Made by a program: the position numbers and the translations under genes. This document shows, in pieces, positions 12,663 to 57,862 of a DNA stretch of 64,000 nt (position 1 is the stretch's first letter; each line of letters begins with the position of its first letter). This DNA comes from Candidatus Cybelea septentrionalis (GTDB lineage: Bacteria; Vulcanimicrobiota; Vulcanimicrobiia; Vulcanimicrobiales; Vulcanimicrobiaceae). The stretch lies in the NCBI GenBank assembly GCA_003158175.1, contig PMHJ01000014.1:18661-82660 (forward strand), in the 5' to 3' direction. The notes beneath the pieces were generated by a model. The model searched no databases. It worked only from the letters and a program-made list of their open reading frames with translations, and was not told the origin of the DNA.

Positions 12663-13379
12663 GTGCGACCGGCGCTCCCGGATATTCGGTACGATTTGGC
12701 AGGCGAGGACGTGTATCGGATCGAGTCTACCTCGACGGTTTCGAGAGTCTCCTATGCCGGTACCGAAAACCTATCGATCAAGCAAGACGGCAAGCGCACG
12801 CGTTTCGAAGCGCGAGCGCGATATCTTCGCTACTCTCCGGACGGCAAGAGCAGCGCGGACGCCCGATTCGTCACCGAACTTCTACCGAACGGCTCGTTCG
12901 AAGGCCGCGTTGACGACGACCCAGACTTTCTGACGATCCTCAACCAACCATTTGCCGTGCAGCTTGACCCTGCAACGCTACGAGATTTGCGCGAGTTGCG
13001 CGGTGCCGTTCCCTTCGCAGCGAACTCTCCGCTCGGCGGGGACTCGGTGCTCCACGGTTCCTTGCGGCCCGGTGCGAGCGGCTCGATCGACGGGCGTCCC
13101 AGTGTGGCTGTACGTTTCCAAGCCGTCGGACCAATGACCGGAACGTTGCCCCAAAGCACGGACGCCGGCATTTCGGGCACCATGCGGATGGAGGGCACGG
13201 CGTACTACTCGCTCGACGATGCGATGCTTCTGGGACTCAGCGCGAAGCTAACAATCGACGCGCGTCTTCGTCAAAGTCATCCGGCCGTCTTCATACCGGT
13301 GCACATCACCTATAGCCGAGCCATTCGCGTGGCGCAGCATGCGCGGGACGTCGGTCAGGCGGTCAAAATGCTCCGATGA
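12663..13379 (+). CDS. Secreted protein of unknown function, start uncertain
   Basis: From GTG 12663 the product is 238 residues, beta-rich, with repeated strand/turn segments and no recognised family. The frame is open upstream and reads IKLGLVLVTALLAVRPALP just before and across the GTG, a clear signal peptide. The first plausible initiation site for that peptide is ATC at 12624, preceded by GGAG with six bases of spacing (12614-12617); CTG 12597 is another option. A lumenal or outer-surface location is therefore likely. The last 17 bases overlap the convergent gene. Confidence 0.65.
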   Translation: MRPALPDIRYDLAGEDVYRIESTSTVSRVSYAGTENLSIKQDGKRTRFEARARYLRYSPDGKSSADARFVTELLPNGSFEGRVDDDPDFLTILNQPFAVQLDPATLRDLRELRGAVPFAANSPLGGDSVLHGSLRPGASGSIDGRPSVAVRFQAVGPMTGTLPQSTDAGISGTMRMEGTAYYSLDDAMLLGLSAKLTIDARLRQSHPAVFIPVHITYSRAIRVAQHARDVGQAVKMLR

Positions 13380-13758
13380 GCTCGACTTGCAGCGGATGAC
13401 GGAACGGCTGCTCGCGTAGCTCCGTCAACGGCGTTAAAGCCAAATGGTTTTGATGGCAGTCGATCAGCATTTCGATCGCACGCTTGACCGAGCCGGACTC
13501 TTCAACGTATTTAGCTAGCTTTTTCTTGAAGTAGGCCCGCGGATCGCGTAAAACCTTGGCGTAGTACGGGTCGTCGGTCAAGCCCGCGGAATCCACGCCC
13601 TCTTTGGGAACGAGCCACACGAACCACGGATCTTCGCTCTGGCGGTATCCGATCAGCACTAACGGGATGGCTCTTGCAGATGTCAGGTTCGGCACGAAAC
13701 TGCACATCGTGTAGGCATCCAGCGAGATTTCCGTGGGGTCGATCACGGCTTGTTGCAT
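13363..13758 (-). CDS. Hypothetical protein behind a structured leader
   Basis: A 131-residue cytoplasmic-looking protein of no recognised family (TMCSFVPNLTSARAIPLVLIGYRQ, then a helical charged C-terminal half). ATG 13758 is preceded by AGGTG with about eight bases of spacing, so the start is sound. Upstream on the same strand lies a strong intrinsic terminator at 13794-13837 with no gene before it, which suggests attenuation of this gene or a separate small RNA. The tail overlaps the secreted-protein gene by 17 bases. Confidence 0.6.
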   Translation of the reverse strand: MQQAVIDPTEISLDAYTMCSFVPNLTSARAIPLVLIGYRQSEDPWFVWLVPKEGVDSAGLTDDPYYAKVLRDPRAYFKKKLAKYVEESGSVKRAIEMLIDCHQNHLALTPLTELREQPFRHPLQVELIGAF

Positions 13759-13940: not shown

Positions 13941-14030
13941 GGAGTTTTCTCCCACGATGTGAAACCACCGGCCCTAGCGGTGGTGTCGGGGGCACTGTAT
14001 GAGCGCGCCTGCACCACTCCTTCGTGGGAG
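13941..14030 (+). promoter_or_regulatory. Structured leader with competing hairpins over the sigma-factor ribosome binding site
   Basis: CTCCCACGA (13949-13957) is the exact complement of TCGTGGGAG (14022-14030), whose GGGAG is the ribosome binding site for GTG 14036. The same CTCC can instead pair with GGAG at 13941-13944 (loop TTTT). Between the two long arms is a further hairpin, CCACCG/CGGTGG (13965-13970/13978-13983). The layout allows on/off control of sigma-factor translation; function is inference. Confidence 0.5.
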
Positions 14031-14035
14031 TATAC

Positions 14036-14686
14036 GTGCCATCAGCGACTCCATCGGGCCGGACGGCGGCCGCGCGGACGGCTGCGGTCGCGCAGACGGC
14101 GGCGGCCTCGATTCCGAGCGTCGAAAAGTTTGAGAGGATCGTCGACGACTACCAGCGCCGCCTCTACGGGTTTGCACTACGAATGACGGGAAACCGAGAG
14201 GACGCTGAAGAGATCGTTCAAGACGCTTTCGTGCGCGCCTATCGCGCCCTTGGCAAAATGTCGCTCGAGCAACGCGCCGATCTGCGGCTGCAGCCGTGGC
14301 TCTATACGATTACGCTGAACGTCACCCGCAATCGGCTCCGCAGCAAGCGCCCCGTCAACGTGGCCCTCGATGCGCTCGCCGACCCCGATGCTCTGTTGCG
14401 CGAATCGAACGAGGGGCCGCCTCAACCCGAGAGAATCGTCGAGCAAAACACTGAGATCGCGCTCGTCGAGCGCGCACTGCTCCAGCTACCGATGCATTTG
14501 CGTGCTGCGGCGACTCTACGCTTCATCGAAGGGCGCAGTCACCCGGAGATCGCCGAAATTCTTAACCAGCCGATCGGAACGGTGAAGTCGCACGTTCATC
14601 GAGCCGTACGCATCCTGCGACGCATTCTCGGCCCGCAGATCGGAAGATTCAACCCGGAAGGAGTTCCCGCTCATGCGTTGTCGTGA
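14036..14686 (+). CDS. ECF-type RNA polymerase sigma factor
   Basis: A 216-residue group 4 (ECF) sigma factor. Region 2 is YQRRLYGFALRMTGNREDAEE with VQDAFVRAYRAL, and region 4 is LPMHLRAAATLRFIEGRSH with IGTVKSHVHRAVRILRR. A ~25-residue Ala/Thr-rich extension precedes region 2. I chose GTG 14036 because GGGAG (14026-14030) sits five bases upstream; GTG 14024 is inside that element. It overlaps by 14 bases the gene for a zinc anti-sigma/alkyltransferase fusion, its likely cognate regulator. Target promoters are unknown. Confidence 0.9.
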   Translation: MPSATPSGRTAAARTAAVAQTAAASIPSVEKFERIVDDYQRRLYGFALRMTGNREDAEEIVQDAFVRAYRALGKMSLEQRADLRLQPWLYTITLNVTRNRLRSKRPVNVALDALADPDALLRESNEGPPQPERIVEQNTEIALVERALLQLPMHLRAAATLRFIEGRSHPEIAEILNQPIGTVKSHVHRAVRILRRILGPQIGRFNPEGVPAHALS

Positions 14687-15404
14687 CGTCGATGCATTAT
14701 GGGACGAGCTTCGCGGCGAGTGCCAAGCCTCGCTAAAGGAGACCGTCCATACTCATCTTCGAGCCTGTCCGTCCTGTCAGGCGGTTTACGAGCAATACGC
14801 TGGGGTTGCCTACTGCCTCTCCTGTCTGCCGCTTCCCGAACCTTCGTGCGACCTCACGAAAAAGGTCATCCAGCACCTTGCGATGCTCAAGGGCGCGATG
14901 GCCGCGCCGATCGTGCTCTCTGCGATCTCGACGCCGCTGGGACGCGTCTATGCCGGATTCAAAGACAATCGCATCGCCTACCTTAGCCTGGACACCGGCG
15001 ATTCACCCGAAGAAGTTGCCGCCCGGGCCGGGCGCCGTTTACGTCGCCGCGTCGTGCAGGGACAGGCGCCGCCATGGCTCGTGAGCGCCATCGAACGATT
15101 CTTCAGTACCTGGAAGGTCGATGACGAGGTCGTTGATATCAGCAATCTCACACCGTTCGAACAAGCCGTGCTCCGGGCGGCGGCCCGCATCCCGCCCGGT
15201 GAAGTTCGTTCGTACGCATGGGTCGCGACGCAGATCGGCCGGCCCAAAGCGGCGCGCGCAGTCGGCCGCGTGATGGCGCGCAATCCGCTTCCGCTGCTCT
15301 TTCCGTGCCACCGCGTCGTCGACTCGTCGGGAGAGCTGCACGACTATTTTTATGGACTGGAAATGAAGGCGCGGCTTCTTCAAATGGAGGGCTACCGCGG
15401 CTAG
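14673..15404 (+). CDS. Zinc-binding anti-sigma domain fused to O6-alkylguanine-DNA alkyltransferase
   Basis: A 243-residue fusion. Residues 1-60 match a zinc anti-sigma (ZAS/zf-HC2) domain: Cys3 followed by H28-x3-C32-x2-C35. Residues ~75-243 are an Ogt/MGMT-type alkyltransferase with the N-terminal ISTPLGRVYAG strand, the DNA-binding region TPFEQAVLRAAARIPPGEV and the suicidal PCHRV site at Cys212, then YGLEMKARLL. MGMT proteins irreversibly move alkyl groups from O6-guanine to that Cys. Co-encoded with an ECF sigma factor and overlapping it, the protein may hold the sigma until Cys212 is alkylated. There is no membrane segment, so sensing would be cytosolic. The signalling role is inference. 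Confidence 0.85.
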   Translation: MRCRDVDALWDELRGECQASLKETVHTHLRACPSCQAVYEQYAGVAYCLSCLPLPEPSCDLTKKVIQHLAMLKGAMAAPIVLSAISTPLGRVYAGFKDNRIAYLSLDTGDSPEEVAARAGRRLRRRVVQGQAPPWLVSAIERFFSTWKVDDEVVDISNLTPFEQAVLRAAARIPPGEVRSYAWVATQIGRPKAARAVGRVMARNPLPLLFPCHRVVDSSGELHDYFYGLEMKARLLQMEGYRG

Positions 15405-15448: not shown

Positions 15449-17005
15449 ATGACCGATCCTCGGATCGCCGCCATCCCCGACATCCATGGTCACGCCAAAG
15501 GCGAACACCGGCCTTTTACAGAGGAACGGCCGCTCGCGTATTCCGCGCGAATGCTCTTCCTATGGTTTTACCACGCCTGCCGCCGCTTATCTCCACGCTT
15601 TTTGATGGTTGCCGACCACGCCAACTATTTGACATTCGAGGATCCTGGAGCAGTCTCCACGGTCCGCCGGGCACTGAAGCTGGCACAGGCCGGCGACCTG
15701 ATCGGCGCGGCCGAAACGGCCGGCGTCGACCTTCCGCACGCCGCGGCCGTCTCAGAGGGAATGCGCCGAGGGATGCGCTTCGCGATCGGCGCTGAGATGG
15801 ATAACGATCCCCGCGCACGGCCCGATGCGCAGAACATCGTGGACGCACTGCGCCCCGACGGGATTATCCGTTCGGTGCACTTCGTTCCGATCCAGCATCC
15901 GGAAAAAGGGGCCGACTGGCCGTGGCCCTTTGACAGTGAGGAGTTTATCGACCTCTACGAGACGATAAGCACGGAGACGCTCTGGGAACTCTACACCGCT
16001 AAGTTATTTGACGATCTAGAGAAGCTGCCCACGCACATTGCCGGGCACTTCTACGTTCCGGCCACCCTCGGGCGCTGGCCCGCCCAAAAGACGCTCGAGC
16101 AATACGAGGATCGTCTGCTCGATATCTGCCATCAGCGAGGCGTGGCCGTCGAGATCAACACGCGATTCCTCTACCGCGACCGTCCCGAAGATCGCAAAAA
16201 GAAGTATCTCGAAGCTAATGCAAGACTGATCCGCAAGGCCAAAGCCCGCGGAGTCGGAATTGCGATCGGATCCGACGCGCACAGTCCGAAGGATCAGGGC
16301 AATGCGTTCGACGTCATCCTCGGCTTACTCGACGATGCGCACATCAACGAGTTGGTCTTTCCGGTCGCGGGGAGGTTGGCGCGGGTTGCGCTGCGCGCGA
16401 CGCGAGAACATCTGGAGGCGCAGGCCCAAGCCGGGCGCCAACCGGCCGTGCCGGGCAGCAGCATCACGGGTTATGGCCGGGCCGAGCTTGGATTGCCCGA
16501 AGAGGAGCCGGTCCATCGCGAAGGTGGCCGAGCCACGCGCGAGAGCGGGCCGAAAAAGCGCGCCGGCGACTCGGCTCGCACGTCGAAGCGCCCGACCGTC
16601 ACGACTCCGCCGGCTGCGAGCACATCTCGTCGCAGCGCCGAGTCGACATCGTCGGCGACCAAGGCAAAGGCGGCGCGCGTAGCTAAACCGCCCGCTCCCG
16701 AAAAGAAAAAGCCCGCGCGACCGCCGGCCGCAGCGGCCAAAGCAAAGAAGTCCGCGGTAAAGCCGTCGCGACCCGTCGCGAAAAAGGCCCCGCCCGCCCG
16801 CAAGAGCGTTACCAAGAAGAGCTCCAGCAAGAGCGGCGGAGGCAAGAAGGTCGCGAAAAAAGTCTCCAGCAAGAAGGCTCCCGTTCGTAAGAAGCCGGCT
16901 GCAAAGACCGCGGCACCGCGCCGCCCGGCGAAGCCGAAGCGGACTGCCGCCGCAGCCGCGAAGAAGAGCGTCAAAAAGAAAAAAACCGCGGCAAAGCGCC
17001 GCTAA
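15449..17005 (+). CDS. PHP-domain phosphoesterase with long histone H1-like Lys/Ala/Pro tail
   Basis: 518 residues from ATG 15449; the longer open frame upstream is the overlapped alkyltransferase gene. Residues 1-350 are a PHP metallo-phosphoesterase: DIHGHA (His13, His15), VADHANY, AEMD, AGHFY and GSDAHSP carry the metal ligands. From about residue 355 to the end the protein is low-complexity, rich in Lys, Ala, Pro, Arg and Ser, with repeated KK/AAK blocks like bacterial H1-like and AlgP tails that bind DNA. It follows the sigma/anti-sigma-alkyltransferase pair by 44 bases, suggesting an operon. PHP domains occur in HisJ phosphatases and in DNA polymerase X nucleases; the tail favours a nucleic-acid role, which is inference. 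Confidence 0.8.
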   Translation: MTDPRIAAIPDIHGHAKGEHRPFTEERPLAYSARMLFLWFYHACRRLSPRFLMVADHANYLTFEDPGAVSTVRRALKLAQAGDLIGAAETAGVDLPHAAAVSEGMRRGMRFAIGAEMDNDPRARPDAQNIVDALRPDGIIRSVHFVPIQHPEKGADWPWPFDSEEFIDLYETISTETLWELYTAKLFDDLEKLPTHIAGHFYVPATLGRWPAQKTLEQYEDRLLDICHQRGVAVEINTRFLYRDRPEDRKKKYLEANARLIRKAKARGVGIAIGSDAHSPKDQGNAFDVILGLLDDAHINELVFPVAGRLARVALRATREHLEAQAQAGRQPAVPGSSITGYGRAELGLPEEEPVHREGGRATRESGPKKRAGDSARTSKRPTVTTPPAASTSRRSAESTSSATKAKAARVAKPPAPEKKKPARPPAAAAKAKKSAVKPSRPVAKKAPPARKSVTKKSSSKSGGGKKVAKKVSSKKAPVRKKPAAKTAAPRRPAKPKRTAAAAAKKSVKKKKTAAKRR

Positions 17006-56844: not shown

Positions 56845-57788
56845 AAGGAGGATCGAGCCAGCGAATCCATTTTAAACTCGAGCGCCTCCAGATATTTCTC
56901 CGCGTCCATGGCGGCGCGGCAACCTGCGCCGGCAGCCGTCACCGCTTGACGGTAGCGATGGTCGTTAACGTCGCCCGCAACGAAAACGCCTTCGACATTC
57001 GTTACCGATCCGTCGGGCGAGTCGATGTAGCCGCGTTCGTCGAGATCGAGCTGGCCCACAAAAACACCTGTGTTCGGCGTGTGACCGATCGCGACGAAGA
57101 GCGCGTCGGTTTCGAACTCGTACGTACTGCCATCCGCCACGTTACGAAGGCGCAGCCCCGTTACGTGATCGTCGCCGCGGACTTCCTCCACCACCGTGTT
57201 CCAAATCATATCGATCTTCTCGTTGGAACGCGCGCGGTCGGACATGATTTTGCTCGCACGCAACCGATCGCGGCGATGTATCAAGGTCACGCGGCGGCCG
57301 AAGCGGGTGAGGAAGAGCGCTTCTTCGAGGGCCGAATCGCCGCCGCCCACGACGACGATGTGCTTGTCGCGAAAGAAAGCGCCGTCGCAAGTCGCACAAG
57401 TCGAAACGCCTCGGCCGCGCAAGCGTTCCTCGCCCGGAATGTCGAGCCAGAGCGCGCTCGCGCCCGTCGCGACGATTACCGTCCCGGCTTCGTACTGCTC
57501 GTCGCACGTGCGCACCAAGAGCGGGCGCCTTGCGAAGTCGACTGCGGTGACGTCGACGTTTTCGATGCGGGCGCCAAAGCGCTCGGCCTGTTCGCGAAAG
57601 CGAATCATCAGATCCGGTCCCATGATGCCCTCGGGAAAGCCCGGATAGTTTTCGACCTCGGTCGTCAGCATGAGCTGCCCGCCGTAGAGTCCGCCGGCAA
57701 AGACGAGCGGCCGAAGATTCGCTCGCGCCGCGTAGACGGCGGCGGTTAGCCCGGCCGGCCCCGAGCCGATGACGATCACGCGTTCCAT
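56841..57788 (-). CDS. trxB: Thioredoxin-disulfide reductase
   Basis: A 315-residue low-molecular-weight thioredoxin reductase. FAD binds at VIVIGSGPAGLTAAVYAARA, the redox pair is CATC (STCATCDG), NADPH binds at VVVGGGDSALEEALFL, and GVFVAGDVNDHRYRQAVTAAG closes the fold. ATG 57788 has AGAGG upstream; the frame is open ten codons further. It recycles thioredoxin for the peroxiredoxin and other thiol enzymes. Confidence 0.94.
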   Translation of the reverse strand: MERVIVIGSGPAGLTAAVYAARANLRPLVFAGGLYGGQLMLTTEVENYPGFPEGIMGPDLMIRFREQAERFGARIENVDVTAVDFARRPLLVRTCDEQYEAGTVIVATGASALWLDIPGEERLRGRGVSTCATCDGAFFRDKHIVVVGGGDSALEEALFLTRFGRRVTLIHRRDRLRASKIMSDRARSNEKIDMIWNTVVEEVRGDDHVTGLRLRNVADGSTYEFETDALFVAIGHTPNTGVFVGQLDLDERGYIDSPDGSVTNVEGVFVAGDVNDHRYRQAVTAAGAGCRAAMDAEKYLEALEFKMDSLARSSF

Positions 57789-57862
57789 TCCGGGCCTCTT
57801 CGACTCCGCGGGATGCATGCCCGGTTGCAGACGGTCGGACGCGAGGCGTCGAAAGTGCGGCT

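Follow-up and report, generated by a model that had tools for sequence, protein, structure and literature searches.

The question and the locus

Zinc anti-sigma factors and Ada represent the two textbook routes from damaged thiols to transcription. There are precedents both for a zinc anti-sigma equipped with an additional sensor domain (ChrR) and for transcription control by an alkyltransferase (Ada). The locus described here raises the question of whether the two routes may have been joined, i.e. whether a suicidal DNA alkyltransferase fused to a zinc anti-sigma domain could itself govern the release of an ECF sigma factor; we know of no earlier case of DNA-repair chemistry itself driving a sigma factor. 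The stretch analysed (64,000 nucleotides, hereafter the window) is part of contig 15 of a 3.19 Mb Candidatus Eremiobacterota MAG, the label that its close relatives in public genomes also invariably carry. Two genes are central to the question:

14024–14686, + strand: gene for an ECF sigma factor of 220 aa (putative GTG start; Pfam Sigma70_r2/r4_2)
14673–15404, + strand: gene for a fusion protein of 243 aa (zinc anti-sigma domain plus O6-alkylguanine-DNA alkyltransferase, MGMT), overlapping the sigma gene by 14 bp

A profile scan matched the sigma gene product to Pfam Sigma70_r2 (E = 1.6e-15) and Sigma70_r4_2 (E = 5.5e-13), and its membership of the ECF group follows from the presence of the sigma2 and sigma4 domains, the absence of sigma3 and a score above the cut-off of NCBIfam sigma70-ECF. 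In a phylogenetic tree the protein falls in an order-specific clade, and a search of other classes of the phylum found no orthologue. A preliminary description of this DNA had placed the start of the gene at 14036; the longest frame with a usable start instead opens at the GTG at 14024. The sigma protein of relatives begins MSALAPLL..., an ancestral start that corresponds to the ATG at 13999. In the present genome this ATG is out of frame (13999–14024), a frame change common to the nearest relatives, indicating that translation proceeds from a GTG further in, the exact position of which is uncertain.

The overlap that the preliminary description had reported, between the sigma gene and a gene joining an anti-sigma domain to an MGMT, was borne out: both domains are recognised by profiles, and the 14-bp overlap recurs in most relatives. 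Searching 149 genomes of the phylum recovered the fusion, from residue 1 to approximately residue 242, in 93 genomes, all of which belong to two sister families of one order, a little-studied group of soil bacteria; other classes and families of the phylum yielded ordinary MGMT matches only, with no fusion. The same description had proposed looking for the fusion beside ECF genes elsewhere, and at every one of the 61 loci compared a sigma gene (75–100% identity) lies directly 5' of the fusion gene. Among the fusion members none was found with the enzyme split from the anti-sigma domain. The 93 full-length fusions, taken together with the constant upstream sigma gene, rule out chance association or an assembly chimera.

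No whole-length match to the fusion protein was found outside this lineage in the collections searched, which covered one phylum through MAG data and other phyla thinly; the fusion may thus also occur in other phyla. In a plasmid search the best 15 matches were ordinary MGMT or Ada-type proteins, none reaching the N-terminal zinc motif of the query. Structure prediction from nine sequences returned four N-terminal helices, with a mean pLDDT of 53 and a pTM of 0.41, and was rejected as evidence on account of this poor quality.

The N-terminal zinc domain

14673–14897, + strand: zinc anti-sigma (ZAS) domain, residues 1–75, with predicted ligands C3/H28/C32/C35 (CHCC) and an extra C48-x2-C51; RsiW, RsrA and antisigma profile matches

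The zinc ligands named in the preliminary description, Cys3 and H28-x3-C32-x2-C35, proved to be invariant in 60 of 60 sequences. Both members of the additional C48/C51 pair are present in 49 of the 60 and both are absent in nine, as would be expected of a functional pair that is dispensable.

Taken singly, the window protein scores 18.7 bits against zf-HC2 (E = 0.0019), below the 22.2 cut-off, and its residues 1–40 match the RsrA model at E = 0.0074. Across the family, NCBIfam 'antisigma' matches 55 of 59 members scanned singly (best 1.9e-7), the RsrA model 38 of 59 (best 6.4e-6) and zf-HC2 34 of 59 (best 2.9e-5), whilst the family profile matches the anti-sigma RsiW, for which a structure bound to its sigma factor exists, over residues 12–75 (E = 6e-4). 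Furthermore, a model built from residues 1–75 recovers the ORF adjoining unrelated ECF genes at 10 of 14 loci, mostly in other families. The preliminary description had made its reading depend upon a match of residues 1–60 to ZAS or zf-HC2 profiles, and at the family level the domain passes this point by way of the antisigma, RsrA, zf-HC2 and RsiW matches. The features of a class I ZAS domain are likewise present, i.e. Hx3Cx2C with an N-terminal ligand in 60 of 60 sequences and an adjacent ECF gene at 61 of 61 loci. On this sequence evidence the N-terminal domain is a class I zinc anti-sigma domain with putative sigma-binding function. Against TIGR03988, the RsrA equivalog model, the window protein reaches 16.4 bits where the cut-off is 62.5, indicating a distant relative of RsrA and not an orthologue.

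The alkyltransferase domain

14898–15401, + strand: MGMT domain, residues 76–243, comprising an RNase-H-like N-terminal half and a catalytic C-terminal half; the profile aligns to Ada-C (1sfe) over positions 80–243, and to human AGT
15306–15308, + strand: codon of the alkyl-acceptor Cys212 (PCHRV), C212 in 60/60 sequences

The match to DNA_binding_1 (MGMT) covers residues 161–240 (E = 4.9e-30), with PCHRV located at Cys212, and the window protein scores 93.6 bits against TIGR00589 (cut-off 46.4). The first of these matches, in combination with the Ada-C alignment over 80–243, indicates that the whole two-part alkyltransferase is present. The intact PCHRV motif noted in the preliminary description stands, Cys212 being invariant, as are H213, N204, Y181 and E239 (all in 60 of 60 sequences), with R195 retained in 59 of 60. 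We take Y181, N204, C212, H213, E239 and R195 to be the counterparts of Tyr114, Asn137, Cys145, His146, Glu172 and Arg128, respectively, of human AGT. Residues that contact DNA in MGMTs are also conserved across the family.

In the pocket, 58 of 60 sequences have Tyr where human AGT has Gly160, and 59 of 60 have His at position 156. We considered, and rejected, the possibility that the replacement of Gly160 by Tyr kills the enzyme, since a Trp is found at this position in E. coli Ada-C and also in the AraC-type Ada of the present genome; the pocket is accordingly Ada-like and without evident inactivation. Contig 46 of this genome (locus L002) encodes an Ada variant, a further MGMT joined to a DNA-binding domain of AraC type and showing no sign of Ada's zinc domain.

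Promoter and predicted regulon

13960–13987, + strand: sigma-operon promoter, -35 TGAAACC (13960–13966) and -10 GGTGTC (13982–13987); conserved, 21.5 bits

The sigma operon is preceded by the best-scoring site of the whole window (21.5 bits). The consensus [TC]G[AC]AACC - 15/16 nt - GNKGTY is found at all 48 loci with a readable start, and the spacer sequence diverges between them; the operon is thus predicted, from its promoter, to be autoregulated. A weight matrix was trained on sigma-operon promoters alone and applied to held-out genes, with 608 upstream regions of neighbouring genes as controls. Scores above the 99th control percentile were obtained for trxB in 27 of 30 genomes, htrA in 25 of 28 and cysK in 12 of 18. 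In the present genome the corresponding scores are 12.7 (trxB), 11.8 (htrA) and 6.7 (cysK), set against 7.8 and 3.6 for the 99th and 95th control percentiles, respectively. One of these predicted targets lies inside the window:

56856–57788, - strand: trxB, thioredoxin reductase, an orthologue of the genes with 27/30 promoters above the 99th percentile
57801–57829, - strand: promoter-like site TGCAACC-N-GGAGTCG before trxB, 12.7 bits with the sigma-operon-trained matrix

Pattern scans gave a wider set of candidates. The promoter layout was found before cysK in a genus-wide scan, and before trxB, pirin, uvrB and a cytosolic HtrA-like protease in a family-wide scan. The site preceding uvrB occurs in two genera and reaches 21.5 bits, a score attained by no control; single sites also precede pirin (three genera), aldo/keto reductases (three), a short-chain dehydrogenase (two), old yellow enzyme and clpB. 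Having been found by pattern, these single sites, that of uvrB included, do not constitute independent evidence. Scanning with wrong spacers (13–15) still gave more sites than the reversed-pattern control, which therefore underestimates the noise, and for this reason we base the regulon on the matrix scores of held-out genes and on recurrence among orthologues. The motif is absent from the two other ECF genes recognised in the present genome.

The preliminary description had also suggested that a sigma-dependent promoter might be found upstream of DNA-repair genes. Such a promoter was found before uvrB in two genera; at the separate Ogt and AraC-type Ada genes of the present genome it was looked for and was absent. 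As predicted from promoter motifs, the regulon is a thiol/electrophile-stress and protein-quality set of the SigR/SigH type, and not a set of alkylation genes.

The HtrA-like serine protease (loci L165, L175, L176 and others) has a PDZ domain and no apparent signal peptide, and is apparently cytosolic. The same type of promoter precedes it in nearly all genomes having the gene.

A sister sigma/MGMT-Ada pair

Other MGMT matches within this order led to a second pair, present in at least 14 of its genomes (loci L411–L424), in which a related sigma gene abuts or overlaps the gene for a protein of approximately 255 aa. One example is as follows:

locus L416, 6996–7538: sigma factor gene of the sister pair
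locus L416, 7546–8319: MGMT-Ada gene of the sister pair

The approximately 255-aa protein begins with a short segment, which is followed by an intact MGMT and, at the C-terminus, by the Ada metal-binding domain (PF02805; best E = 4.7e-15, with four of eight scanned proteins above the Pfam cut-off and four slightly below). The four zinc cysteines (CxxxC...CxxC) and PCHR[VI] are kept in 14 of 14 proteins, and a match to an AraC domain is absent. In one member the short first segment can be aligned to the final helices of the anti-sigma domain, a resemblance that is no more than suggestive.

In phylogenetic trees with outgroups drawn from this phylum alone, the sigma factors of the two systems formed sister clades to the exclusion of 13 other ECFs (support 100/99), as did their MGMTs to the exclusion of nine others (support 96/88), with each individual clade well supported. 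As both trees pair the sister systems, the partnership of sigma factor and MGMT probably existed before the two pairs split. The Ada metal-binding domain takes the methyl group from methylphosphotriesters, and the presence of this methyl-accepting zinc domain in the sister pair makes alkylation sensing clearly more likely than could be seen from the preliminary description.

At one sister locus (L415, genome G076) the pair lies approximately 5 kb from ORFs resembling DNA ligase D domains of end-joining repair.

Proposed mechanism and its alternatives

We consider the chances to be about even that the locus encodes an autoregulated switch that responds to stress through two thiol inputs, i.e. 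RsrA-type sensing at the zinc centre and irreversible alkylation of Cys212, that would replace its own consumed enzyme. In unstressed cells the anti-sigma domain would hold the sigma factor. Thiol-oxidising or electrophilic stress would strike the zinc-cysteine centre, as in RsrA, and the MGMT domain, in taking an alkyl group off DNA, would become permanently alkylated at Cys212. Alkylation of the active-site Cys is reported to destabilise MGMTs, disrupting contacts between the two halves and marking the protein for degradation (PMC10779285, PMC4605297). In the fusion, the alkylated MGMT domain would be destabilised and the protein would release the sigma factor or be degraded, and free sigma would then transcribe a thiol, protein-quality and repair regulon (including UvrB in some genomes) together with its own operon. 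A consumed repair molecule would thereby call for its own replacement. Consumption of the MGMT would be the counterpart of Ada methylation, with a sigma/anti-sigma pair in place of the AraC-type activator.

A wider reading, which we advance more tentatively, extends this to both sister systems: an ECF sigma factor would be freed by irreversible alkyl transfer from DNA, which in type I (the fusion) would go to Cys212 and in type II (the sister protein) to the cysteines of the MGMT and of the Ada-type zinc domain, such that this order would have rebuilt the Ada response on sigma release and merged it with an RsrA-type thiol regulon. The main argument for an alkylation input is indirect, namely that the fusion is never found split and that the sister pair carries the one domain known to have evolved as a methylation sensor. 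The main argument against it is that the best-supported predicted targets (trxB, cysK and htrA) are not alkylation genes. These thiol and protein-quality targets could be explained by RsrA-type sensing alone, which counts against a switch responding purely to alkylation, as do the CHCC ligand set, shared with the redox sensor RsrA, and the lack of the promoter at the Ogt and AraC-type Ada genes of the present genome.

The same observations lend substance to a simpler explanation, that the CHCC domain alone senses oxidants or electrophiles in the manner of RsrA, with the MGMT a co-made repair passenger and Cys212 taking no part in signalling. The invariant CHCC ligands, a predicted regulon that comprises trxB, htrA and cysK as well as individual sites before genes for pirin, old yellow enzyme, aldo/keto reductase and ClpB, and the absence of any classical alkylation gene of the present genome from under the promoter are all consistent with this account, which we regard as doubtful, though a serious contender; it leaves unexplained why enzyme and anti-sigma are covalently joined in every genome, and why the sister pair has retained a sigma factor and an MGMT together with Ada's methyl-accepting zinc domain. 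Alternatively, the MGMT domain might sense something besides O6-alkylguanine, whether through reaction of Cys212 with small electrophiles or oxidants, or as a DNA tether recruiting nucleotide-excision repair in the way of ATL proteins. The pocket residues (Tyr at the Gly160 position, His at 156) and promoters before electrophile genes and uvrB would fit such a role, but the Trp of E. coli Ada-C marks the pocket as Ada-like and not dead, the family has retained the acceptor Cys that ATLs lack, and the DNA-contact residues are conserved; we consider this explanation improbable. That residues 1–75 form a zinc domain without sigma-binding function, and that co-transcription is all that connects the two genes, could be argued from the failure of the single window protein to reach the Pfam zf-HC2 cut-off; it appears very improbable in the face of the family-level antisigma, RsrA and RsiW matches, the recovery of ECF-adjacent anti-sigma ORFs by the domain model and the strict sigma linkage over 61 loci.

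Relation to known systems

RsrA/SigR of Streptomyces and RshA/SigH of Mycobacterium likewise combine a soluble CHCC zinc anti-sigma with an autoregulated ECF sigma factor. They resemble the present system, for which the regulon is a prediction, in promoter layout and in targets, which similarly include trxB, cysteine synthesis and protein quality control. For SigH the promoter is GGAAYR-N17-GTT, and direct targets include trxB2, cysteine synthesis, clpB and a DNA-repair gene (PMC4803200). RsrA differs from the fusion protein in being only 105 aa in length and without an enzyme domain, but its ligands C11-H37-C41-C44 are spaced almost as are C3-H28-C32-C35 in the fusion (26 residues from C11 to H37, 25 from C3 to H28), and redox release of sigma from RsrA depends on this CHCC set and requires Cys11 in particular (PMC4960319). 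ChrR, the partner of RpoE in Rhodobacter, is likewise a soluble zinc anti-sigma whose chain continues into a distinct sensor domain at the C-terminus; unlike the fusion protein it has HHCC ligands and senses singlet oxygen through a cupin that has no DNA-repair activity.

In E. coli Ada and in AdaA/AdaB a suicidal alkyltransferase is likewise tied to transcription control, and the bulky aromatic pocket residue is common to Ada and the fusion. Ada, however, is an AraC-type activator acting on DNA, whereas the proposed output here is a sigma factor. The window protein shares only the MGMT part with Ada, type I being without the Ada zinc domain, whereas the sister protein has both MGMT and PF02805.

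The author of the preliminary description knew of no such system, and our search of published full-text literature likewise brought up neither a fusion of anti-sigma and MGMT nor a pairing of a sigma factor with an Ada domain. The nearest was a remark on ECF122 of Actinobacteria, ECF sigma genes with a 6-O-methylguanine DNA methyltransferase gene as neighbour and no cognate anti-sigma listed (PMC8999054). No fusion is reported for ECF122, and we liken it to the present sigma factor by its published description alone; the system described here may account for such ECF groups adjoining MGMT genes. Should Cys212 signal, this would be the first such case known to us, and would connect alkylation directly with thiol stress and repair. 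Conservation across the order, and the existence of the sister pair, bring the proposal within reach of a test that needs one promoter and two small soluble proteins.

Flanking genes

Downstream of the fusion lies a gene for a PHP-domain-like protein with a C-terminal tail very rich in lysine, alanine and proline (15449–17005). Nearly all loci have it in synteny with the fusion, and a pyroglutamyl-peptidase-like gene frequently intervenes between the two; we regard it as a syntenic neighbour and not as a component of the system. Upstream of the sigma operon, two genes without a Pfam match (12663–13379 and 13363–13758) hold their place in 51 and 34, respectively, of 60 loci of relatives.
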